Translations under genes and position numbers: made by a program
Assembly (NCBI GenBank): GCA_013360195.1
Contig: JABWCQ010000003.1
Location: forward strand, 62,001 to 126,000
Reading direction: 5' to 3'
Length of the DNA: 64,000 bases
From: a bacterium
Lineage (GTDB): Bacteria > Electryoneota > RPQS01
In this document: positions 30,999-42,054 of the stretch, in pieces
Layout of the letters: each line of letters begins with the position of its first letter
Numbering within the stretch: position 1 is the first letter of the stretch
Notes under the pieces: model-generated
The model's input: only the letters and a program-made list of their open reading frames with translations
Told to the model about the DNA's origin: nothing
Databases searched by the model: none

Positions 30999-31012
30999 GC
31001 GGCCCAAGATAG

Positions 31013-31984
31013 ATGACCGACACCCTGCAAGTAAGTGCCTTCTACCAGGAGAATCAGGCCAGGCTGAAGCTGAAACTGCGGAATAACCCGCGTGGATTGT
31101 CGCGCGAAATCACGCAGAAGGAATTGCACAGACCTGGACTGGCATTGGCGGGGTTCATTGAGCTCTTTACATATGACAGGGTGCAGGTTCTCGGGAATAC
31201 CGAGATTCAGTACCTTGCAAGTCTGACTGACGAACAACGCCGGAAGACGCTTTCACGGGTCTTTGAGTTCAACATTCCGTGTCTTATTGTTACAAACGAT
31301 AATTCACTTCCTGTTGAGTTGGTCGAAGCGGCTGACAGAGCAAATGTCGCCATCTTTTCATCTCCTTTAACGACGACGGAGATGACGCACCTTCTGTCAG
31401 ATTATCTTGATCACAAATTTGCTCCGACTGAGTCGATTCACGCATCGCTCGTGGATGTTTACGGTACCGGATTGCTCTTTACCGGTCGAAGCGGAATCGG
31501 CAAGTCGGAAGTATCTCTTGACCTTGTCGAAAGGGGACATCGGCTTGTTTCGGACGACATGGTCAAACTCACGCGAACCGCTGAAAATGTTTTAATGGGT
31601 ACGGGGCGTGAGAAACTTCGGCACTACATGGAAATCCGCGGAATCGGAATCATAGACGTCGGAAGGATGTTTGGTGTTCGCGCCATTCGCATGCAGAAGC
31701 GGGTTGAGACCGAAGTAGAACTTGTCGATTGGCGTGGAGATGTGGACTATGAGAGAATCGGACTTGAAGAACAATACAAGGAATATTTGGGCGTTAGAAT
31801 TCCACATGTTATCCTTCCGATTTTCCCTGGCAAGAATATTACGGTGATTGCAGAGGCAATTGCGCTGAACCTTCATCTGAAAGTCTACGGATATCACCCC
31901 GCAAAAGAGTTTGGAAAAGCTCTTTCAGAGATGATGGAGAACCGCACATCGCTTCAGTCCTATTTGGAAAAAGACTTTGAATAA
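31013..31984 (+). CDS. hprK: HPr kinase/phosphorylase
   Basis: A 323-residue bifunctional enzyme that phosphorylates Ser-46 of HPr-like proteins and reverses it. The N-terminal domain (about residues 1-130) is MurF-like. The catalytic half has HASLVDVYGTGLLFTGRSGIGKSEVSLDLV with the P-loop GRSGIGKS, RLVSDDMVKL, and the HprK signature EIRGIGIIDVGRMFG. The C-terminal VRIPHVILPIFPGKNITVIAEAIAL follows. All regions are present. In FCB and proteobacteria it often regulates processes other than sugar uptake. No ptsH lies in the window. Confidence 0.97.
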   Translation: MTDTLQVSAFYQENQARLKLKLRNNPRGLSREITQKELHRPGLALAGFIELFTYDRVQVLGNTEIQYLASLTDEQRRKTLSRVFEFNIPCLIVTNDNSLPVELVEAADRANVAIFSSPLTTTEMTHLLSDYLDHKFAPTESIHASLVDVYGTGLLFTGRSGIGKSEVSLDLVERGHRLVSDDMVKLTRTAENVLMGTGREKLRHYMEIRGIGIIDVGRMFGVRAIRMQKRVETEVELVDWRGDVDYERIGLEEQYKEYLGVRIPHVILPIFPGKNITVIAEAIALNLHLKVYGYHPAKEFGKALSEMMENRTSLQSYLEKDFE

Positions 31985-31987
31985 CCT

Positions 31988-32365
31988 ATGATTCGCGCGA
32001 TACTTGTCACGCATGGAACTCTGGGAAAGTCACTGTATGAGGCGGCGGAATCCGTTCTCGGTCCACAAGAAGGTGCAAGTGTCCTGTCGAATAGCGGACT
32101 GTCACTTGAACAGATTCAAAGCAAGGTCAGAGAATTGCTTACGAATGAACCTACACTGATTATGGTAGATCTGTGTGGTGGTTCCCCGTTCATGGCCTGC
32201 TGTTCTTTGGGCAAGATTCAAGGCGATACAGCCATTGTTTCCGGCGTTAATCTTCCCATGCTTCTATCTTACTTTACCAAGCGCGAAAAGCTGTCGCTTG
32301 CGGAGCTGTCCCGGACAGTGGAAAATGACGCCGTGCGCGGAATTCAGACACGACAACCTGCATGA
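31988..32365 (+). CDS. PTS mannose-family EIIA domain protein
   Basis: A 125-residue stand-alone EIIA of the mannose/fructose (Man) family. The phosphorylated His is H9 in LVTHGTLGKSLYEA. MVDLCGGSPFMACCSL is the second conserved strand-turn, and VSGVNLPMLLSYFTKR the third. It accepts a phosphate from HPr and passes it to EIIB. It starts 3 bases after hprK and overlaps the EIIB gene by 4 bases. There is no EIIC or EIID permease nearby, so a regulatory role is at least as likely as transport. Confidence 0.92.
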   Translation: MIRAILVTHGTLGKSLYEAAESVLGPQEGASVLSNSGLSLEQIQSKVRELLTNEPTLIMVDLCGGSPFMACCSLGKIQGDTAIVSGVNLPMLLSYFTKREKLSLAELSRTVENDAVRGIQTRQPA

Positions 32366-32859
32366 TTTCTTTTCTTTGGAATAGAAAGAAGAACGAGTAC
32401 CCGATTGTTCGCATTGACGACAGATTGCTGCACGGACAGGTAATGGTCGGTTGGGTAAGTGCGCTTGGATTGGAATGGCTGATACTTGCGAACGACCGCA
32501 TGGTCCTCGATTCCGGAATGTCTGCCGCACTAAAGGCCGGTGCACCCTCAGGAACCAAGATTGACATTGTGGATTTGGATGAAGCAGGACTTGGACTTTC
32601 TGAAGGTAGTTACTCGAAATCAAAGTCAATGCTCGTACTTGAAAGCCCTGGCGACGCCCTTAAGCTTGTCCACAAAGGTGCGCACTTGCCCAAACTTCAC
32701 ATTGGCGGCTTGCACTTCCGTGAGGAGAGCGAGGAATTCCTCCCGTATGTATTTCTATCAAACTGGGATCGCATGGCGCTGGACGAAATGATTCAACGTG
32801 GAATTCGAATCACTTGTCAGGACCTCCCTTCAACAACTCCGGTCGCATATCGCGGCTAA
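32362..32859 (+). CDS. PTS mannose/sorbose-family EIIB protein
   Basis: A 165-residue EIIB. The phosphocysteine-free, histidine-type active loop is VRIDDRLLHGQVMVGWV with H24 as the phosphorylation site. LILANDRMVLD and KLHIGGLHFREESEEFLPYVFLS fit the rest of the fold. It receives phosphate from the EIIA protein encoded just upstream. The usual membrane partners EIIC and EIID are missing here, as is EI. It overlaps the EIIA stop, while the MCE gene begins 5 bases after its own stop. Confidence 0.9.
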   Translation: MISFLWNRKKNEYPIVRIDDRLLHGQVMVGWVSALGLEWLILANDRMVLDSGMSAALKAGAPSGTKIDIVDLDEAGLGLSEGSYSKSKSMLVLESPGDALKLVHKGAHLPKLHIGGLHFREESEEFLPYVFLSNWDRMALDEMIQRGIRITCQDLPSTTPVAYRG

Positions 32860-32863
32860 CTTC

Positions 32864-33748
32864 ATGAAGCAAGAACTAAAGGTCGGAATAACCGTGTTGG
32901 TCTCTCTAGTAATTCTGATTGGAGGAATCATGTGGGGCAAGGGATTCCGACTACAGGCTAAACGCTATGAATTCACTGTCCTGTTTAAAAACACGGGCGG
33001 ACTCGAAGAGGGTGCTAACCTCCTTGCAAACGGCGTCATAAAGGGACATGTTGTCAGTATCGACTTTTACGACGGATACGTTCGAGTATCGGCAACCGTT
33101 GATGAAGATGTCATAATATACTCTGACTATGTGATTACGATTGAGTCTCCGACGGTGATGGCCGGACAAGCTCTGAGCATTTATACAGGCACAAGTCAGC
33201 CGCGAGCCGACATTACCGTCGACCTGCAGGGTACCGATCCTCAGGGAATGGCGGCGATGATGAACAAAATGCAGGACTTCACCGGTCGTATCGAAGTAAC
33301 GCTTAACCATCTTGATTCAGTCTTGATCGACGCGCACAGGGTGCTTGGCGATTCTTCGAATCAGTCAAATCTCTCAAGGACCATGCAAAGCACGGCCGAG
33401 CTCGCGGAAACATCAGCCTCTATGTTGAAAGCAAATCGGGAAGAGTTAGAAGCGTCGCTTGCCGATCTTCGGGCAACAATGGCATCCGCCCGTGAATTGA
33501 CAGAAACTTTGAATGCCAAGTCGGACGGAACGCTTGCTTCGGTGGATAGTGCAATGACATCCCTCACTAATGTGGCGAATGAGATTCGAACCTTAGTAGC
33601 GAACTTGAACAGCGGAACTGGGACTGCGGGTAAGCTGATGACAGATGACGAGCTCTATCACCGTCTGACTGAGACGCTTACTGAAGTAGACTCTTTGTCT
33701 CGTCACCTCAGGATAAACGGTTTGCGGCACAAGATAGTATTCTTCTAA
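32864..33748 (+). CDS. MCE/MlaD-family substrate-binding protein
   Basis: A 294-residue protein with one N-terminal membrane helix (KVGITVLVSLVILIGGIMWG) and an MCE domain (residues 35-120, FTVLFKNTGGLEEGANLLANGVIKGHV). A long coiled-coil follows (SSNQSNLSRTMQSTAELAETSASML onward, residues 165-265). Such proteins are the periplasmic lipid-binding part of Mla-type ABC transporters that move lipids between membranes. MlaE and MlaF are not adjacent. I use ATG 32864; an in-frame start at 32798 would lie inside the EIIB gene. It is the last gene before an intrinsic terminator. Confidence 0.93.
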   Translation: MKQELKVGITVLVSLVILIGGIMWGKGFRLQAKRYEFTVLFKNTGGLEEGANLLANGVIKGHVVSIDFYDGYVRVSATVDEDVIIYSDYVITIESPTVMAGQALSIYTGTSQPRADITVDLQGTDPQGMAAMMNKMQDFTGRIEVTLNHLDSVLIDAHRVLGDSSNQSNLSRTMQSTAELAETSASMLKANREELEASLADLRATMASARELTETLNAKSDGTLASVDSAMTSLTNVANEIRTLVANLNSGTGTAGKLMTDDELYHRLTETLTEVDSLSRHLRINGLRHKIVFF

Positions 33749-33898
33749 TTGTCGGCTGACTTGTACAAGTCAAAAAGACCATTTTCAGCATTCCTACAAA
33801 TTGTCCTACAACATGAACTGATTTCGCTGTCAGAACCTCCGGAATTGAATAAGAGTTTAATAGCTGGTCTAAAGCAGGCTATGAGTTTTCACATGATG

Positions 33899-33926
33899 AA
33901 ACTGCCATTGAAGTTGGCAGTTTTTT
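33899..33926 (+). terminator. intrinsic terminator after the hprK-MCE operon
   Basis: AAACTGCC (33899-33906) pairs perfectly with GGCAGTTT (33916-33923) over a 9-base loop, followed by a T6 run (33921-33926). It lies in the 248-base gap between the MCE gene and adenine deaminase. I see no convincing gene in that gap. Confidence 0.85.
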
Positions 33927-33996
33927 CTATTGATAAGAATTGAAAATCGGCGCAATCTGTGCTAACTTAACTGATTGGAAAAGGAATTCCATTCCC

Positions 33997-35739
33997 ATGA
34001 ATCTGGAAACCAAAAAGCGATTGCTCGCGGTATCTCGCGGTGACAAGCCGGCGGACCTGCTCTTGAAAAATGTGACGCTGGCCAACACGATTTCGCATGA
34101 AATGGAGCAAACCAATGTCGCGATTTTTGAGGGAAGAATAGCCGGCTTCGGTGAGTATCAAGCTGTGGAGACAATTGACTTGCACGGCGGTTTGATCGGG
34201 CCTGCACTGCTTGACGGTCATATTCACATTGAGTCGACTCTGCTGACTCCGCCGGAGTTTGCCAGAATAGTGGTTCCGTTTGGTACGGGTGGCGTGTTTT
34301 GCGATCCCCATGAAATAGCAAATGTTCTTGGTTCCGGCGGCATTCAGTATATACTGGAGAGCTCGGAAGGACTTCCGATGACTGTCTGGGTGATGATTCC
34401 TTCATGTGTTCCCGCAACTAATATGGAAACGTCTGGAGCCAAAATGCTTGCGCGGGACATGCAGCCGTTTCTTGGTCATCCACGTGTGCGAGGAATTGCG
34501 GAAGTAATGAACTTCCCCGGTGTGGTCCTGGGTCTCGACGAGGTACTGGAGAAGATCGAATTGGGCACCGGACGTCCTATTGATGGTCATGCCCCGGGAG
34601 TTCGCGGCAAGTGGCTGAACGCATATGTTGCTGCGGGTGTTGAAACGGACCATGAAAGCACAAGCCTTGCTGAAGCGCACGAAAAATTGCGTCGAGGCAT
34701 GGCTGTGTTCATTCGAGAGGGTTCAACGGCAAAGAACCTTGAAGCATTGCTTCCGCTGGTAAAACCTGAGACTGCTCACTTATTTGCATTTGTGTCGGAT
34801 GACAGACACGCCGATGAACTTCTGACCGAAGGCCACATGAATGCAACGCTGCAAAAGGCCGTGAAGATGGGACTTGACCCGTTGACCGCACTGTCTATGT
34901 CGAGCACCAATACGGCACGACTGTTCGGAGTCATGGACACTGGTGTGGTTGCGCCGGGACGTTTTGCCGACCTCGTCCATTATGAAGACTTGAAAAGTTT
35001 TCGAGCCTTGCGAGTTTGGCATAAAGGATCTGAAGTTGCGCGTGACGGTGAATTGCTCGTGAGCATTCAGAAGCCTGCCTTACATGGTGTTAAGGACACG
35101 GTGAAACTGCCTCCCGTCTCTTTGGACTCAATCAAGATTCCAAGTCATGCGGAAGTTAACATCATTGATGTCATCCCGGACCAGATAGTGACTGGCGGCT
35201 CAACTGCTCGGCTGCCTGAAAGCAACGGTAACTTAACGTGCTCACCCGGGCAAGATATCGCAAAGTTGATAGTAATAGAGAGGCATGGAAAGTCAGGTTC
35301 GATAGGCAGAGGCTTTGTTCGCGGATTTGGAATTTCTTCCGGCGCGATTGCTTCTACGGTTGCACACGACTCGCACAACCTGATTTGCTGCGGAATGTCG
35401 GACGACGATATGCTCGTCGCGACGAGGACCTTAGGAGAAGTTGGTGGAGGCTGGATCGTTGTGCAGAAAGGAAAAGTCCTGGCCTGCCTGCCACTCCCTA
35501 TTGCCGGTCTAATGTCTGACAAGTCGGCTTCGGAGATCGCTCCAGAGCTTGATGAATTGCATAACGCTGCGAAAAGCCTTGGCTGCAAGCTTAACTCACC
35601 ATTTATGACATTATCATTCTTAGCACTACCAGTTATTCCCAGCTTGAAACTAACAGATCAAGGGCTGGTTGACGTAAACAAATTCTCTATCATTCCATTG
35701 GGGGTATCTCATGAAGGCGAGGCCGCAAACCTCTTTTGA
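33997..35739 (+). CDS. ade: adenine deaminase
   Basis: A 580-residue amidohydrolase that turns adenine into hypoxanthine and ammonia. Metal ligands appear in DGHIHIESTLLTP (HxH) and FCDPHEIANVLG. GHAPGVRGKWLNAYVAAGVETDHES and FVSDDRHADELLTEGHM (Asp) follow. The C-terminal half has the Ade-specific VIERHGKSGSIGRGFVRGFG and ASTVAHDSHNLI segments. Length is as expected. ATG 33997 gives MNLETKKRLLAVSRGDKPADL, the family N-terminus, with AAAAGGA upstream. The last 29 bases overlap the start of the regulator gene. Confidence 0.95.
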   Translation: MNLETKKRLLAVSRGDKPADLLLKNVTLANTISHEMEQTNVAIFEGRIAGFGEYQAVETIDLHGGLIGPALLDGHIHIESTLLTPPEFARIVVPFGTGGVFCDPHEIANVLGSGGIQYILESSEGLPMTVWVMIPSCVPATNMETSGAKMLARDMQPFLGHPRVRGIAEVMNFPGVVLGLDEVLEKIELGTGRPIDGHAPGVRGKWLNAYVAAGVETDHESTSLAEAHEKLRRGMAVFIREGSTAKNLEALLPLVKPETAHLFAFVSDDRHADELLTEGHMNATLQKAVKMGLDPLTALSMSSTNTARLFGVMDTGVVAPGRFADLVHYEDLKSFRALRVWHKGSEVARDGELLVSIQKPALHGVKDTVKLPPVSLDSIKIPSHAEVNIIDVIPDQIVTGGSTARLPESNGNLTCSPGQDIAKLIVIERHGKSGSIGRGFVRGFGISSGAIASTVAHDSHNLICCGMSDDDMLVATRTLGEVGGGWIVVQKGKVLACLPLPIAGLMSDKSASEIAPELDELHNAAKSLGCKLNSPFMTLSFLALPVIPSLKLTDQGLVDVNKFSIIPLGVSHEGEAANLF

Positions 35740-37057
35740 ACAGAAAGTTCTTGATATTGCATTGATAACCGCAAAGTACCGTGGACTGGAAGTTGACGAG
35801 CAGCTTCAATCTCACATCGAAACTGAAATCCGGGAATTGATTTCCGGAACTGACGTCGGAAGTCGTCCGAACGGCCGTAGGAAGCTGGAAGACTTAGATG
35901 TATTGGGACATGTTTTTCCGGCCGGACTACCCGACTTTGGTTGCGGTATTGATGATGAAACATCGCCGCAGGTCGCAAGAAATGACGCAAGGATTATTGG
36001 CAATTCTGAGGCAATTAAAGCTGCCGTAGGTCGTGCCTTGGGTCTTGCGTGCACGAATGCAAGAGTACTTATACACGGGGAAAGCGGAACCGGTCGAGGT
36101 CAATTTGCCCGGCTTATTCATGATCACTCAGTTCGCCGGGACAACGCGTTTATTGAAGTGCACTGTGAAGCGCTCGACCCGAATTTTGCTCTTTCGGACT
36201 TGTTTGGAAACAGGTTTGCCGAGGCGGAATCGCAGGCGCAAATTGGAAAAGTTGAGGCCGCAGATGGCGGAACACTATACTTAAGCGAAGTGACCGAGTT
36301 ACCGGCAAGTGCACAAGCGGCATTGCTTCGACTCCTCGATACAGGAGAGATTCAGCCAACGGGATGCGCATTCGCAAGAAAGATCGACGTACGAGTGATT
36401 TCATCGACAAAGGCGAATTTGCGCGAAGAAGTGTTGCGTGGCAATCTCAAGCCAGAACTTTTTTACCGGCTTTTCTCGACCGAACTCTTGATACCTTCTC
36501 TTCGCGACCGGAAGGAGGATATCCCCGAGATCTCGCGATGCCTTCTAAAGAAAATGAAAATGATATATGGAAAGAAGACACCGGCTGGGTTTGCCGTCGA
36601 GACCGAAAAACTTCTTTGTGCTTATGATTGGCCCGGAAATGTTCGTCAATTGGAGCAGGTAATCGAACGGACGGTTCTTGAATGCGACTCAGAGTTCATT
36701 TCGGTTGACGACATCGCACCTACTTTGGGATCCTTCACGAATCATTTCTGTGAAGTGCCGAGGGAGATTGCCGAATCTCTTGCGGAAACGATTTGCGGCG
36801 CAATTGGCCCTCAATCCAGCCTGTTTGTCAGCCATCTCGTTCGCACGCGTGGCCACTGGTTCACGACGTCATCAGTTGCGGAAGCAACGGGAATGTCAGA
36901 ATCCTGCATGAGGGTAAAGCTTCGAGGGCTGGCCGCCGCGGGTGTTTTGGCTGCAGAAGGCGACAGGCGCGGACGAAGATACCGATTGGCGGATGAGTTG
37001 GAGCTTGATTTTCCGTCTAAAAACTCTGATATTAATAGGTTAGGCGAACCGGACTAA
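35711..37057 (+). CDS. sigma54-activator-like AAA+ protein with degenerate ATPase motifs
   Basis: A 448-residue protein. Residues 1-90 are a helical and linker region, 94-330 a bEBP-type AAA+ domain, and 390-440 a winged-helix-like DNA-binding end (ATGMSESCMRVKLRGLAAAG). The AAA+ core is altered. Walker A reads GESGTGRG, with R129 where Lys is expected. Walker B reads TLYLSEV, with S192 replacing Asp. The GAFTGA sigma54-contact loop is absent between LFGNRF and GKVEAADGGTLY. Later parts (LFYRLFSTELLIPSLRDRKEDIPEI, YDWPGNVRQLEQVIERTVL) are well conserved. It is therefore probably a regulator that no longer hydrolyses ATP or opens sigma54 promoters. It is coupled to ade by a 29-base overlap. 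Confidence 0.88.
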   Translation: MKARPQTSFEQKVLDIALITAKYRGLEVDEQLQSHIETEIRELISGTDVGSRPNGRRKLEDLDVLGHVFPAGLPDFGCGIDDETSPQVARNDARIIGNSEAIKAAVGRALGLACTNARVLIHGESGTGRGQFARLIHDHSVRRDNAFIEVHCEALDPNFALSDLFGNRFAEAESQAQIGKVEAADGGTLYLSEVTELPASAQAALLRLLDTGEIQPTGCAFARKIDVRVISSTKANLREEVLRGNLKPELFYRLFSTELLIPSLRDRKEDIPEISRCLLKKMKMIYGKKTPAGFAVETEKLLCAYDWPGNVRQLEQVIERTVLECDSEFISVDDIAPTLGSFTNHFCEVPREIAESLAETICGAIGPQSSLFVSHLVRTRGHWFTTSSVAEATGMSESCMRVKLRGLAAAGVLAAEGDRRGRRYRLADELELDFPSKNSDINRLGEPD

Positions 37058-37083
37058 GCAAGCAAGCATAATTTGACTTTGCG

Positions 37084-37109
37084 AAAAAGCTCCGGACTCG
37101 GAGCTTTTT
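37084..37109 (+). terminator. strong intrinsic terminator
   Basis: AAAAAGCTCCG (37084-37094) and CGGAGCTTTTT (37099-37109) form a perfect 11-pair stem with a GACT loop. Because the stem begins with A5 and ends in T5 it could work on both strands. It closes the ade-regulator unit. Confidence 0.9.
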
Positions 37110-37112
37110 GCG

Positions 37113-37118
37113 TATAAT
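37113..37118 (+). promoter_or_regulatory. candidate -10 element for hisS
   Basis: A perfect TATAAT lies 18 bases before the hisS TTG, just after the terminator, and TG occurs two bases upstream of it. No good -35 hexamer is visible because that region is the terminator stem. If used, the transcript would have an extremely short leader. Confidence 0.35.
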
Positions 37119-37135
37119 AAACAATAATTTAAGTT

Positions 37136-38491
37136 TTGAAACGAATCGAACCACGCACTTTCCGAGGAACAAGGGACTTTCTGCCATCAGAACTGATTCC
37201 ACGGCGTAAGATCCTGCGAGTTATCGAGGAGGCATATCAGCGGTACGGATTTCAGCCGTTGGAGACACCAGCCATCGAGTATTTGGATATTTTGACCGGC
37301 AAGTCCGAAGAAAACGACAAGCTGATTTATGAAATCAAGCGAGCCCGGGGTGAAACCGACGAGTCTGCCGAAAGTGCCATTGCCCTGCGATACGACCTGA
37401 CGGTACCATTGGCGCGCGTGATCGCCCAGTATGCGGAATTGCCTAGACCATTCAAACGCTATCAAATTCAGCCGGTATGGCGCGCAGACAGACCACAACC
37501 GAGACAAGGAAGATACCGCGAGTTCGTACAATGTGATGCCGACATTCTGGGGACAAACTCACCACTTGCTGATGCGGAAATTCTCGCGCTAACAAATGAA
37601 ATTCTTTCGGCAATTGGATTGCGCGGGTTCAAGATTCGACTTTCATCAAGGAAATTCTTGGCCGGCTTGTCAGAAATTGTTACAGGTGACAGCACACATT
37701 TCTACGATTTCTGCCGATGTCTCGACAAACTCGACAAAATCGGCTGGGACGGGGTCGAAGAAGAGTTTCGCAAAAACAGTATACCTGCAGACGCCGCGCG
37801 AAGCCTGATCACAGACTTGATCAAAGTGAGTGGCGAGTCTCCGGACTTACTAGAGGTGCGCAGCCGCGTGGCAAAGAGCAATATGGCAAGTCAAGGGTTA
37901 TCAGAGATTGAGGAAGTCTATTTTTCTGCTTGCAGTCTTGGTGTGCCAAAGGAGAGATTGCATTTTGACCCGACTTTGGCACGAGGTCTGGATTACTACA
38001 CCGGTCCCATATTTGAAACCACATTGCCTGAATTGCCGCATCTTGGATCGCTGACTGGCGGAGGCCGGTATGACGGATTGGTGGCAACTTTTTCTAAACA
38101 GAATGTTTCTGCGACGGGCACAACAATAGGATTGGACAGGATTCAAACTGCACTCACACAACTTAATCAGTTTGTCCAAGTACCATCAGAAACTCAGGTA
38201 CTAATTGCGCGCTTTGACGATGAAGGTGTTTCGCACAACCTGGAAGTGGCCGCGGAATTGAGACGCGCTGGGCTTCGAGTTGAGATATGGTATGACAGTG
38301 ACCGACTAAAGAGGCAGTTTTCCTATGCGGATCAGCAGCGGATTCCACTTGTGGTGATTTGCGGGCCTGAGGAACGTTCACGTGGTGAAATATCGATTAA
38401 GGATATGCGATCGCAGACACAGGTAAGTCTGTCGCGGAGTACTTTGACTGCCAGCCTGCAGGTGATGTTGGAGCCGATTGAAGTCTCGTGA
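37136..38491 (+). CDS. hisS: histidyl-tRNA synthetase
   Basis: A 451-residue class II synthetase. Motif 1 is in LIPRRKILRVIEEAYQRYGF, followed by ETPAIEYLDIL. Motif 2 is KRYQIQPVWRADRPQPRQGRYREFVQCDADI. His-specific segments are ARGLDYYTGPIFE and GSLTGGGRYDGL, and motif 3 is TGTTIGLDRI. The C-terminal anticodon-binding domain begins near residue 345 (TQVLIARFDDEG). The start is TTG, giving MKRIEPRTFRGTRDFLP, the standard N-terminus. No Shine-Dalgarno sequence is seen. The stop overlaps the sfsA GTG by 4 bases. Confidence 0.96.
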   Translation: MKRIEPRTFRGTRDFLPSELIPRRKILRVIEEAYQRYGFQPLETPAIEYLDILTGKSEENDKLIYEIKRARGETDESAESAIALRYDLTVPLARVIAQYAELPRPFKRYQIQPVWRADRPQPRQGRYREFVQCDADILGTNSPLADAEILALTNEILSAIGLRGFKIRLSSRKFLAGLSEIVTGDSTHFYDFCRCLDKLDKIGWDGVEEEFRKNSIPADAARSLITDLIKVSGESPDLLEVRSRVAKSNMASQGLSEIEEVYFSACSLGVPKERLHFDPTLARGLDYYTGPIFETTLPELPHLGSLTGGGRYDGLVATFSKQNVSATGTTIGLDRIQTALTQLNQFVQVPSETQVLIARFDDEGVSHNLEVAAELRRAGLRVEIWYDSDRLKRQFSYADQQRIPLVVICGPEERSRGEISIKDMRSQTQVSLSRSTLTASLQVMLEPIEVS

Positions 38492-39177
38492 AACTGCCAC
38501 AGCCTCTGCAACGCGGAAGATTGCTGCGCAGGTATAAGCGGTTTCTCGCAGACATTTTGATGGACGACGGGCGGGAGATCACGGCCGTGACTCCCAATAC
38601 CGGCAGCATGAAAGGGTTATGTGTAACAAATGCGCCTGTCATGGTGAGTTATTCCAACTCCCCGTCGCGCAAGATTCCTTACACCTGGGAATTAGTTGAA
38701 ATTCAGGGGAAATGGGTCGGAATAAACACACATCTTCCCAATGCTCTTGTTGCAGAGTGCCTGGATAAGCGGAGCATACCCGAACTGGCAGAATTCGAAA
38801 CCTATCGCCGTGAAGTTCGATTGCAAAGCGGATCCCGTATTGATTTCGGTCTTGGGAATGACGAAGCACTGCTGGAAGTCAAGAATGTAACCCTTGTAGA
38901 AAACAGTGTTGCATTATTCCCTGACAGCATCACTGAAAGGGGCACAAAACATCTTCATGAACTCATGGGGGCCGTATCCAGGGGCGTGAAGGCGTACATG
39001 GTCTACGTGGTGCAGCATCATTTAGCCGAATCTTTTTCACCTGCCGACGGGATTGATCCGGTGTATGGCAAGGCACTTCGTGCCGCTGAGAACCGAGGGG
39101 TTAAACTACTCGCTTTGAAGGCCAAAGTCAGCGAATTCGAAATCTCTCTTACCGAACAAATACCAATCCACCTCTAA
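38488..39177 (+). CDS. sfsA: SfsA (sugar fermentation stimulation) family protein
   Basis: A 229-residue protein of the SfsA family, a predicted DNA-binding/nuclease-like fold (OB plus PD-(D/E)XK-like). Family segments are present: KLPQPLQRGRLLRRYKRFLADI, NTGSMKGLCV, YTWELVEIQGKWVGINTHLPN, SRIDFGL, LLEVKNVTLVE and FPDSITERGTKHLHEL. ID and EVKNV give the D...ExK pattern. Function in the cell is poorly known. The start is GTG, coupled to hisS. Confidence 0.94.
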   Translation: MKLPQPLQRGRLLRRYKRFLADILMDDGREITAVTPNTGSMKGLCVTNAPVMVSYSNSPSRKIPYTWELVEIQGKWVGINTHLPNALVAECLDKRSIPELAEFETYRREVRLQSGSRIDFGLGNDEALLEVKNVTLVENSVALFPDSITERGTKHLHELMGAVSRGVKAYMVYVVQHHLAESFSPADGIDPVYGKALRAAENRGVKLLALKAKVSEFEISLTEQIPIHL

Positions 39178-39179
39178 AA

Positions 39180-40568
39180 TTGCACGAACTCGTCACACTT
39201 CAGCATGGACTAAGCGAGTCCGCACGCAAACCGTTCCCGCATTCCGATGGAACCGGTCCGCGTGTGTACATACAGACATACGGTTGTCAGATGAATGTCT
39301 CCGACTCTCAAACTATTGAGAGCATGCTGGCAGATTCCGGCTATCGTTTCTGCGGTTCAGCAGAAGAAGCGGATGTAGTTCTAATTAATACCTGCATGAT
39401 CCGCGAAACAGCAGAGGTACGAGCGCTTGGTCAGCTTGCAAATCTCTCTGCACTCAAGAAAGGTAATCCGTCAAGAGTTATCGGAATTCTGGGATGCGTT
39501 GCGCAAGCTAAGCGAAGAGAGATACTTGAGTCTCACCCGTACGTCGACATTGTGGTGGGGCCGGACTCGTACCGACGTCTACCAATATTACTTGAAGAAC
39601 GGTTCATTTCGCCGCCGGGTAGTCCGGGACTGCTGGAAACTACCCTTCTTCGTGAAGAACTTTACGATGATATCCTGCCCCGTCATCACGGTGGTGTTAC
39701 CGCTTTTGTGACAATTATACGCGGATGTGACAAGTTCTGCAGCTTCTGTGTTGTGCCCAGAACCAGAGGACGGGAGCGCAGCCGTCCGTTGCCGAGCATT
39801 CTGCGCGAGGTCGAGCATCTTTCTTCGAAAGGTGTCCGAGATGTCATGCTGCTTGGTCAGAATGTCGACTCATACCGGTGGGAAGGTCACGACTTTGCGG
39901 ACTGTTTGGCGGCCGTTGCGGATCTTGATGGCATTTCGCGGGTTCGTTATATGACTTCTCACCCAAGTGACATCTCCGACAAGTTACTGGAAACGATGGG
40001 CGGGCATTCCAAGATATGCCCTTATCTGCACCTTCCCGTACAGGCCGGCAGCAACAGAATACTGCGGGAAATGAACAGGCCATACACAAGGGAACATTAC
40101 CTCGGAATAGTCACGCGTGCGCGGCGGCTTGTTCCCGGCATTGCGCTCTCTACAGATGTCATAGTTGGTTTCCCTTCTGAAACTGATGCAGAGTTTGAGG
40201 AGACCTATAGCTTGATGAATGAAGTGCGGTACGACACAGCGTTCATGTTCAAGTATTCAGAACGCCCGTTGACCAAGGCGTCGAGAATTGCGGATGATGT
40301 GCCGGATGCAGTCAAGGTATCGCGTCTCGAACGTCTGATTGAACTGCAGCAGAAAATCGCCCGGGAGCGTAACGAGCTGCAGTTGGGAACAACAACTGAA
40401 GTACTCATAGAAGGACCTGCACCGAAAGACAAGTCAATGTGGTCCGGCAGAACTCCGGACTTTCGGCCCGTGGTCTTCCCGAAGCAGGAAGAGCAGGTCG
40501 GAGACTTGGTCAGAGTCCGCCTTGATTCGCTTTCCGGATTTACATTTCATGCTTCTAGACTCCCCTAA
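39180..40568 (+). CDS. miaB: tRNA-2-methylthio-N6-isopentenyladenosine-37 synthase MiaB
   Basis: A 462-residue radical-SAM methylthiotransferase. The N-terminal UPF0004 domain has IQTYGCQMNVSDSQ, VLINTCMIRETAE and GILGCVAQ, supplying the three auxiliary-cluster cysteines. The radical-SAM cluster is GCDKFCSFCVVPRTRGRERSR. HLPVQAGSNRILREMNRPYTRE and DVIVGFPSETDAEFEET follow, with a C-terminal TRAM domain. These match MiaB rather than MtaB or RimO. The start is TTG two bases after the sfsA stop and has no clear ribosome binding site. Confidence 0.95.
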   Translation: MHELVTLQHGLSESARKPFPHSDGTGPRVYIQTYGCQMNVSDSQTIESMLADSGYRFCGSAEEADVVLINTCMIRETAEVRALGQLANLSALKKGNPSRVIGILGCVAQAKRREILESHPYVDIVVGPDSYRRLPILLEERFISPPGSPGLLETTLLREELYDDILPRHHGGVTAFVTIIRGCDKFCSFCVVPRTRGRERSRPLPSILREVEHLSSKGVRDVMLLGQNVDSYRWEGHDFADCLAAVADLDGISRVRYMTSHPSDISDKLLETMGGHSKICPYLHLPVQAGSNRILREMNRPYTREHYLGIVTRARRLVPGIALSTDVIVGFPSETDAEFEETYSLMNEVRYDTAFMFKYSERPLTKASRIADDVPDAVKVSRLERLIELQQKIARERNELQLGTTTEVLIEGPAPKDKSMWSGRTPDFRPVVFPKQEEQVGDLVRVRLDSLSGFTFHASRLP

Positions 40569-40594
40569 TTTTCATCCATAATCGGAGCAAATCC

Positions 40595-40915
40595 ATGTGG
40601 ATTATACGCTGGCTGCTATTTCTAATTGTGATATTCTTTCTGGTCGGATTCCTTTCGCAGAATTCTGAACCAAAAGTGCAAATTCAGATAATTACTTGGC
40701 AATCACCGCAGCTGCCTCTCTCTTTTATGTTGTTTCTCGCCGCGCTTGTGGGATACATTGTGAGCCTGCTGGTTGCTGTTATCAATCAATTGCGGTTAAG
40801 AAGTGAAATTTCGGCACAAAAGCGGCGGAATCAAGCCCTTCAAAGTGAGTTGGAAAGACTACGGAATTTCATGATTGAAGAGGAAGGAACTGAAAGCGGA
40901 GTGCCCCATCCATGA
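40595..40915 (+). CDS. lapA: LapA-like inner-membrane protein (DUF1049)
   Basis: A 106-residue protein with two transmembrane helices (about residues 2-20 and 45-68) separated by NSEPKVQIQIITWQSPQLPLS. A C-terminal coiled-coil follows (LRLRSEISAQKRRNQALQSELERL). This is the LapA/DUF1049 layout. LapA works with LapB to control LpxC turnover and LPS assembly in E. coli. The next gene, overlapping by 4 bases, encodes a LapB-like protein, which supports the call. Confidence 0.87.
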   Translation: MWIIRWLLFLIVIFFLVGFLSQNSEPKVQIQIITWQSPQLPLSFMLFLAALVGYIVSLLVAVINQLRLRSEISAQKRRNQALQSELERLRNFMIEEEGTESGVPHP

Positions 40916-42054
40916 CATTCTTTGAGTTCCTGTTCCTGCTGGTCATCATTGCCGGTGGAATTGGCGCCGCGTCCTATTTCAAGGACTGGAAAGTAAGACG
41001 TAGTTCTTCTCCTACCACCTCGTACGCCGAAGGCCTGCGAGCAATCCTCGATGGTGACAATCCGCGCGCGATTCAGAAACTCCGCGACACGGTTACTGCC
41101 GATACCAATAACATCGACGCGTACTTGCGTCTTGGTCAGCTCTACGCGCAGGCCGGCGACATTTCCCGCGCCATAAAGATTCACCGTGCACTGACTTTGC
41201 GCGGTGACTTGGTCGACAAACAGAAGCTCGACATTTACCGTTCTCTCACAGAAGATTACGTGAAAAGTGGCGATAACAATCGTGCGCTGGAGAGCGTTAA
41301 CCAAATGCTGGGCATTTCCAAAAAGGATGCGTGGGCGCTCCAGCAGAAGAGTGAACTTTTGGCTGCACAGGGTCAATGGCAGGCTGCATACGAATCCGCA
41401 GAGAAACTGAATGGCCATGCCCAGCCAGGTACAAGCCGCAGACTTGCAGTTCTGAAGACGCTCGAGGGAGTGCGGTTGTGCCAGAGCGGGAAAGAGCGAG
41501 ATGGGCGTATCCAGTTCAGACAGGCCATTAAGCACGACGCCGCACTTGTCGCTCCCTACCTATATTGGGGAGATTCCTATGTCAGGGAAAACAGAATTGA
41601 AGACGCGGTCAAGATTTGGCGGCGACTTATTGATGTGAATCCTGCCCAGAGCTATGTTGCTTTTGAGAGGCTTGAGTCACAATTGTTTGACCTCGGGCGG
41701 TTTTCCGAAATTGAGCAGATTTACAGGAGTGTTATCCAGAATTACCCGCAGAATGTTCATGCATATGCGGCACTTTCGAGATTCATGCGAAAGAAAGGTG
41801 ATGCAGGGGGCGCTATTACCATCTTGCGTAATGGTCTGGAATTGAATCCGGAGAGTTTGTGGCTGCGAAGAAGACTCATTCGAATGTATCATGACGTCCA
41901 TGATGTTGACGGAGTGTTGCAGATGTCACGTGACGTGCTTTCCCGTGTCATGAAGGAAAACTACGAGTATTCCTGCTCAAGCTGCGGGAATATTTCCCGC
42001 GAGCCATTGTGGATGTGTCCAAAGTGCAGTAAGGTGGATACTTATAATGTATAG
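40912..42054 (+). CDS. lapB: LapB-like TPR protein with rubredoxin-type zinc end
   Basis: A 380-residue protein with one N-terminal membrane anchor (FFEFLFLLVIIAGGIGAASYF). Tandem TPR repeats fill residues 35-345 (for example YLRLGQLYAQAGDISRAIKIHRAL and PYLYWGDSYVRENRIEDAVK). A C-terminal rubredoxin-like metal site closes the protein, with CSSCG and CPKCSK (residues about 356-376). This three-part architecture is that of LapB/YciM, the adaptor for FtsH-dependent LpxC degradation. It overlaps lapA upstream and the SPOR gene by 8 bases downstream. Confidence 0.9.
   Translation: MTFFEFLFLLVIIAGGIGAASYFKDWKVRRSSSPTTSYAEGLRAILDGDNPRAIQKLRDTVTADTNNIDAYLRLGQLYAQAGDISRAIKIHRALTLRGDLVDKQKLDIYRSLTEDYVKSGDNNRALESVNQMLGISKKDAWALQQKSELLAAQGQWQAAYESAEKLNGHAQPGTSRRLAVLKTLEGVRLCQSGKERDGRIQFRQAIKHDAALVAPYLYWGDSYVRENRIEDAVKIWRRLIDVNPAQSYVAFERLESQLFDLGRFSEIEQIYRSVIQNYPQNVHAYAALSRFMRKKGDAGGAITILRNGLELNPESLWLRRRLIRMYHDVHDVDGVLQMSRDVLSRVMKENYEYSCSSCGNISREPLWMCPKCSKVDTYNV

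Follow-up and report, generated by a model that had tools for sequence, protein, structure and literature searches.

Can a sigma54 activator lose its ATPase and still be kept as a regulator? The question is raised by a gene between ade and hisS in the 64,000-nucleotide stretch of DNA analyzed here (the window, to which all coordinates refer), whose product has the layout of a bEBP with what appears to be a degenerate motor. The gene (positions 35711 to 37057, on the plus strand like every feature described below) begins with ATG and runs for 448 codons without an internal stop, and is thus intact, as the original prediction had stated. Its product comprises a short N-terminal region (residues 1 to 93; 35711 to 35989) with an FPAGLP-like motif common to the orthologues found on the hisS side, an AAA+ core (residues 94 to 262; 35990 to 36496), an AAA+ lid (residues 263 to 338; 36497 to 36724), and a C-terminal winged helix (residues 355 to 430; 36773 to 37000) that can be aligned with those of the orthologues. 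Pfam places Sigma54_activat on residues 95 to 258 (6e-43, 146.9 bits against a cutoff of 20.2) and AAA_lid_14 on residues 265 to 340 (1.5e-19). The upstream neighbor, assigned to adenine deaminase by Pfam (ade, 33991 to 35739, with a start that is not fixed), overlaps the bEBP gene by 29 bp (35711 to 35739), so that the latter starts inside the ade frame; elsewhere the overlap is 4 bp (G003, G005, and G007) or 8 bp (G006). Downstream lies hisS (37136 to 38491), named from sequence.

The original prediction read three catalytic features as lost, and alignment with orthologues bears out each of them. The Walker A motif is GESGTGRG (36077 to 36100), in which the Lys has become Arg (K129R) and the next residue has changed too (E130G). 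The Walker B motif is LYLSEV (36275 to 36292; TLYLSEV in its wider context), with D192S and with E193 kept. In the L1 loop (36206 to 36226), NRFAEA stands in place of GAFTGA and the loop is three residues shorter than in orthologues, reading LFG-NRFAEA against, for example, LFGYEPGAFTGA; the T and G are gone, and F169 and A172 are retained. The further claim that the later motifs are intact holds for sensor II (GNVRQL, in the lid) and fails for the first Arg-finger motif (36446 to 36472), where the usual FRxDLYYRL has become LKPELFYRL (R247K and D249E, with R253 kept); a change at the switch Asn position, N151H (36161 to 36163), had also been missed. PspF numbering, transferred by alignment, pairs N151 with N64 and R247 and D249 with R162 and D164. 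As far as the excerpts of the two papers go, the roles of PspF N64 (glutamate switch), E108, R162, D164, and R227 are as given in PMC4132715, which has the first Arg-finger motif reaching the neighboring subunit, and that of R168 is as given in PMC7175178. The sigma54-contacting GAFTGA loop, the Walker A Lys, and the Walker B Asp, which are expected of a functional bEBP, are all missing or altered.

These changes fall preferentially on functional columns, defined as those that belong to the nucleotide site or contact sigma54 and that at least 9 of the 10 intact family members conserve. With a list of such columns chosen from PspF residues after the alignment had been viewed, 8 of 15 are changed in the window protein versus 7 of 54 other conserved AAA+ and lid columns (Fisher P = 0.0023), and moving the P-loop glycines to the other class gives 8/12 versus 7/57 (P = 0.00025). 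Three of the ten intact orthologues served as controls, each compared with the other intact members (at least eight of nine agreeing): G006, G003, and G012 have none of the 15 functional columns changed, and their changes in other conserved columns amount to 8/59, 2/54, and 10/60, respectively.

Six full-length orthologues (in G002, G003, G005, G006, G007, and G012; loci L021 to L026) share with the window protein the FPAGLP-like region, the AAA+ core, the winged helix, and the position upstream of hisS. All six are normal at the altered sites, retaining the Walker A Lys, the Walker B Asp, the switch Asn, the FTG of GAFTGA, and both Arg fingers; the lesions of the window protein are matched in no orthologue compared. 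The loss of the ATPase site is therefore specific, among the genomes compared, to the species of the window's genome (G000). That orthologues are normal, with only a single species known to carry the change, goes half of the way toward the recent local mutation that the original prediction had named as the outcome telling against it.

Gene order around the locus is largely kept in family f1: hprK, two PTS genes, mce, ade, the bEBP gene, hisS, sfsA, and miaB (names assigned from sequence, that of ade also by Pfam). The bEBP gene adjoins hisS in seven of the seven f1 genomes that have it (G000, G002, G003, G005, G006, G007, and G009, where a contig end interrupts the copy). In three genomes, namely, G001 (a member of the same genus, 98% complete), G008, and G010, the slot between ade and hisS has no bEBP gene and is occupied by another gene, OsmC-like by eye; the gene is therefore dispensable in the family. 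The sole winged-helix match in G001 is weak and lies elsewhere, in a 132-amino-acid frame. For G004 (56% complete), 9.0 kb of a 9.9-kb contig was covered, and neither the bEBP gene nor ade was matched there. In family f2, the gene lies about 1.4 kb from hisS in G012, and the winged-helix profile found no match in G011. Members from families outside this hisS-side subgroup are located elsewhere in their genomes. Since ade is present without the gene in three genomes, and in G002 the gene directly follows mce with no ade between, hisS is the closer companion and the steadier neighbor of the bEBP gene. The same observations leave the proposal that the protein regulates purine salvage, which had been drawn from its coupling to ade, weak.

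Dispensability invites the reading that the gene is a regulator in early loss, in which selection on the ATPase has been relaxed, the frame is not yet broken, and there is no present function. We regard this as unlikely, although several observations fit it. The gene is missing from its slot in a member of the same genus and in two further genomes, none of the six orthologues on the hisS side has the dead residues, and the gene-tree branch is about twice that of the sister sequence from G006 (1.36 versus 0.67), with little or no excess in the neighboring genes (G000/G006 branches of 0.31/0.31 for hisS, 0.18/0.18 for miaB, and 0.37/0.26 for ade). For the core, relative-rate tests gave P values from 7e-6 to 0.028 across six single outgroups, and with the functional sites taken out, the excess kept P < 0.05 for four of the six (not G003 or G021). 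Over the full length, the counts with G003 were 57 versus 38 (P = 0.064) and the other five outgroups gave P values of 0.0006 to 0.037; without functional sites, the full-length excess was not significant with G003, G002, or G021. The winged helix alone reached P < 0.05 with none of the six, leaning faster in the window's genome with G012 (13 versus 5, P = 0.096) and G005 (9 versus 5) and not with the other four.

Against early loss stands the distribution of the excess within the protein. Among positions with a consensus (at least four of five other orthologues agreeing, with the N terminus, residues 1 to 93, and the linker, residues 339 to 354, left out), the window protein has lost 26 of 103 consensus residues in the AAA+ core, two of them deleted columns, versus 2 in G006. 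The corresponding losses are 4 versus 7 of 32 in the lid and 2 versus 2 of 27 in the winged helix, so that neither domain has lost more than its counterpart in the sister, and the contrast between the core and these two domains (Fisher P = 3.4e-4) is based on one sister genome and small counts. Ten of 11 near-invariant positions are retained in the lid, and likewise 10 of 11 in the winged helix, which aligns with the family pattern S....R..L..L.....G...GR.Y. As judged from these alignments, the excess change is confined to the AAA+ core, with no relaxation of the lid or winged helix beyond that in G006.

The open frame argues in the same direction. Between G000 and G001, ade, hisS, and miaB are saturated at fourfold sites (27 to 32% identical), and a neutral copy of this open reading frame would stay open with a probability of about 0.11 at 0.05 substitutions per site and 0.016 at 0.1; long neutral drift would therefore have introduced stops, although relaxation within the last 0.05 or so substitutions per site is still compatible with 448 open codons. 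Identity to G006 at AAA+ codon positions 1, 2, and 3 is 56, 74, and 30%, the pattern of a coding sequence along most of the branch and a further point against early loss. The gene does not look like plain decay, in agreement with the view originally taken of it.

The explanation we favor, with a probability of roughly 55%, is that the protein is an ATP-independent and sigma54-independent DNA-binding regulator. It would descend from a sigma54 activator with a winged helix, the ATPase having been lost in the lineage of this species. We infer DNA binding, oligomeric state, and direction of regulation as follows: the winged helix would bind an operator, the dead AAA+ core and lid would provide the scaffold on which dimers or oligomers form, and the protein would act by repression or by direct contact at sigma70 promoters rather than by remodeling sigma54-RNA polymerase. 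The nearest candidate targets would be the ade operon to which the gene itself belongs or the promoter region of neighboring hisS. The loss of catalytic residues from the core alongside a retained winged helix lends support to the earlier suggestion of a DNA-binding pseudo-ATPase or a sigma70-type regulator.

Precedents exist for bEBPs that have abandoned sigma54, and single bEBPs without a GAFTGA loop are already known. The DNA-binding domains of VpsR (Vibrio cholerae), TyrR, DhaR, and HupR are Fis-type or related HTH domains, whereas the DNA-binding end of the window protein is a C-terminal winged helix. All of them have, like the window protein, a bEBP fold without a working GAFTGA loop; the comparison with this group is by GAFTGA only, whereas here the Walker A Lys, Walker B Asp, switch Asn, and Arg-finger motif are altered together. 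According to the available excerpts, TyrR, DhaR, and HupR are sigma70 dependent and VpsR is judged not to depend on sigma54 (PMC3162934), V. cholerae VpsR regulates sigma70 promoters and needs no ATP (PMC10274813), and, more generally, sigma70 promoters can be under the control of bEBPs lacking GAFTGA, some of which do not need to hydrolyze ATP for this (PMC10274813, PMC3162934). The NtrC proteins of Caulobacter and Rhodobacter capsulatus offer a second parallel, since a lineage-specific deletion in their L1/GAFTGA loop, like that in the window protein, sits in an otherwise recognizable bEBP. They differ in having kept their nucleotide-site needs: according to the same source, NtrC of R. capsulatus depends on binding ATP, and that of Caulobacter depends on its Walker A and B residues (PMC10274813).

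An AlphaFold model, built on an alignment of generic bEBPs plus the window protein, is confident in the core and lid (10-residue means of about 75 to 96 from residue 101 to 340) and poor in the N terminus and winged helix, so it speaks to the core and lid only; there the AAA+ fold is retained as predicted. The best PDB matches of the model are NtrX, NtrC1, LuxO, and FleQ, and VpsR (7v2b) first appears at rank 43. The presence of VpsR among both sequence and fold matches, in an entry whose title names c-di-GMP binding, brings up the notion of a ligand-gated regulator like VpsR or FleQ, with c-di-GMP or some other ligand occupying the dead nucleotide pocket; distant family members in G018 and G015 also follow a gene read by eye as a GGDEF response regulator. 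We consider this improbable, as many ordinary activators outrank VpsR in both kinds of search and inspection by eye found no GGDEF gene among the window open reading frames from 31000 to 42000. It is more improbable still that the protein acts as a dominant-negative subunit in oligomers with active bEBPs of the same cell, for although there are 12 other strong Sigma54_activat matches (>200 bits) in the genome, the core fold is predicted to be intact, and Arg finger R253 is kept, the protein retains its own winged helix and is altered in the very Arg-finger motif that reaches the neighboring subunit in PspF.

Is the favored regulator an isolated case? A winged-helix profile, which weakly resembles IclR/HTH_24-type models, matched once in the window's genome (9.2e-30, a value that is not independent because this protein was part of the profile), and there is therefore no second copy there. 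At E = 0.001, the profile found matches in 16 of 39 genomes of the phylum, among which the weak 132-amino-acid frame in G001 was not counted and a second match in G012 is, by eye, not a bEBP; a wider search added matches in G030 and, weakly, G032. The alignment and tree hold 15 members, with G009 left out as incomplete at a contig end. Motifs are intact in 10 of the 15 (G002, G003, G005, G006, G007, G012, G021, G016, G018, and G013), and the five degenerate members are the window protein and the f5 clade (G015, G030, G033, and G024). In G015, the GAFTGA loop is gone and the Walker A Lys and Walker B Asp are retained. G030 and G033 lack the loop and have Ala and Ser, respectively, at the Walker B Asp, Glu at the second Arg finger, and Ser at the sensor II Arg. 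G024 is missing most of its core and lid, with the N terminus and winged helix remaining, in a draft genome where the missing core could be an assembly fault.

The f5 members thus resemble the window protein as winged-helix bEBPs without the GAFTGA loop, but they keep the Walker A Lys (4/4) and mostly the first Arg finger (3/4) and lie on a separate branch: tree support is 1.000 for the f5 group and 0.991 for the pairing of G000 with G006. Because the clade stands apart from G000, the tree is most simply read as showing two or more independent losses. G030 and G033, which belong to one genus and both have dead sites, are 61, 75, and 38% identical at codon positions 1, 2, and 3, indicating constraint. 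Near-invariant winged-helix positions are less well kept in f5 than in G000 (8/11 in G015, 7/11 in G024, 6/11 in G030, and 5/11 in G033), which counts against the winged helix always being the protected part. In the wider search, which covered 386 genomes, the profile at 1e-4 matched 66. Among the matches listed there are 30 loci, 16 inside the phylum and 14 outside, and searching those 14 with the window protein gave a bEBP only in L201, where it ends, by eye, in a Fis-type HTH. In a further 80 loci listed from a genome-contig scan, several of them from Desulfovibrionaceae, no open reading frame of at least 150 amino acids matched the winged-helix profile at E = 0.01. A likeness by description is found in Desulfovibrio vulgaris DVU0151, a bEBP for which no Fis HTH is annotated and which has some orthologues reported to match a winged-helix model (PMC4641369).

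From these patterns we tentatively propose, at somewhat less than even odds, that a winged-helix sigma54-activator lineage, seen only in this phylum in the searches made, repeatedly sheds its ATPase and keeps its winged helix, with at least two independent conversions to plain winged-helix regulators. On the same provisional footing, its members might form a natural series from full activators (10 members) through loss of the loop (G015) and of the pocket (G030, G033, and G000) to loss of most of the core (G024). Among the open-licence papers listed, judged by title and the opening of the abstract, none dealt with this family or with a bEBP reduced to a winged helix. What the family would add is a range, from intact to dead, among orthologues at a single conserved locus, with the change concentrated in the motor; the matched pair of G006 and G000 proteins allows a switch from activating with sigma54 to regulating without ATP to be put to the test. 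It also advises caution in annotation, as not every Sigma54_activat match should be called a sigma54 activator.

The rpoN search that had been suggested with the prediction returned one strong Sigma54_DBD match in the window's genome, so that absence of rpoN does not account for the loss of the ATPase. A Sigma54_DBD match was found in seven of eight genomes searched and none in G002, which is 97% complete and has an intact bEBP orthologue, so that an assembly gap or a real loss is possible there. Exact TGGCAC-N5-TTGCW sites, resembling -24/-12 promoters, number eight in the window's genome versus three for a reversed control. Within the window, a sigma54 promoter pattern with one mismatch allowed occurred 8 times versus 11.0 expected, and a scored scan of locus regions from 14 genomes gave 2 weak matches, in G008 and G018; these promoter searches found no sigma54 target of the intact relatives. 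Matches to RNA elements in the hisS leader, listed up to E = 5, were all well under gathering scores. Upstream of hisS, over the 3' end of the bEBP gene, lies a promoter-like element, TTGATT-N17-GATATT (37005 to 37033), with 8 of 12 consensus bases by eye; a consensus scan at 9 or more of 12 does not list it. An aligned element is present in G001, G004, G008, and G010, where no bEBP gene was found beside hisS. The C-terminal tail LDFPS..S.I..LGE, which the window protein has in common with its G006 orthologue, was set aside as a candidate for protein constraint because it overlies this element, which is found also in genomes without the gene.

Another bEBP-like protein is encoded outside the window, on contig C7 of the same genome (locus L181:7869-8726, minus strand). 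This 286-aa AAA+ protein keeps the Walker A lysine and has lost both the GAFTGA loop and the Walker B aspartate, features that are common to all five members aligned (from G000, G001, G004, G005, and G007); inspection by eye found no helix-turn-helix in it. Clear orthologues (E value of 4e-59 or better) were recovered from 9 of the 12 relatives searched, with partial orthologues only in G003 and G009 and none in G006, the genome that carries the sister orthologue of the window bEBP gene. Judged by its sequence, the protein looks like a conserved pseudo-activator.

A search of G002, a relative whose genome is 97% complete, gave no match to the rpoN marker domain Sigma54_DBD; this genome has an intact-motif orthologue of the window bEBP gene. 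Within the wider winged-helix family, one member in G024 (L179:462-1445) is without most of the AAA+ core and retains its N terminus and winged helix in frame.

The bEBP gene carries within its 3' end a promoter-like element, TTGATT-N17-GATATT (window positions 37005 to 37033), that stands upstream of hisS. This element was not among the matches of a promoter consensus scan (at least 9 of 12 bases); by eye, a similar element is present in 12 of 13 aligned hisS upstream sequences, the exception being G011. Between this element and hisS, a terminator-like hairpin, AAAAAGCTCC...GGAGCTTTTT, was recognized by eye at positions 37084 to 37109. The same consensus scan did not list it either, and an Rfam search of the hisS leader yielded no matches at the gathering score. 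Similar stretches occupy the same place in G001, from the same genus, and in G006, and the hairpin-like stretch could be an attenuator of hisS.

Finally, gene neighbors were read by eye at two other winged-helix bEBP loci, in G018 (L163:247-3448) and G015 (L165:4352-7446). In both, the bEBP gene comes after a putative endonuclease V gene and a putative gene for a GGDEF response regulator, which may point to a connection with c-di-GMP.
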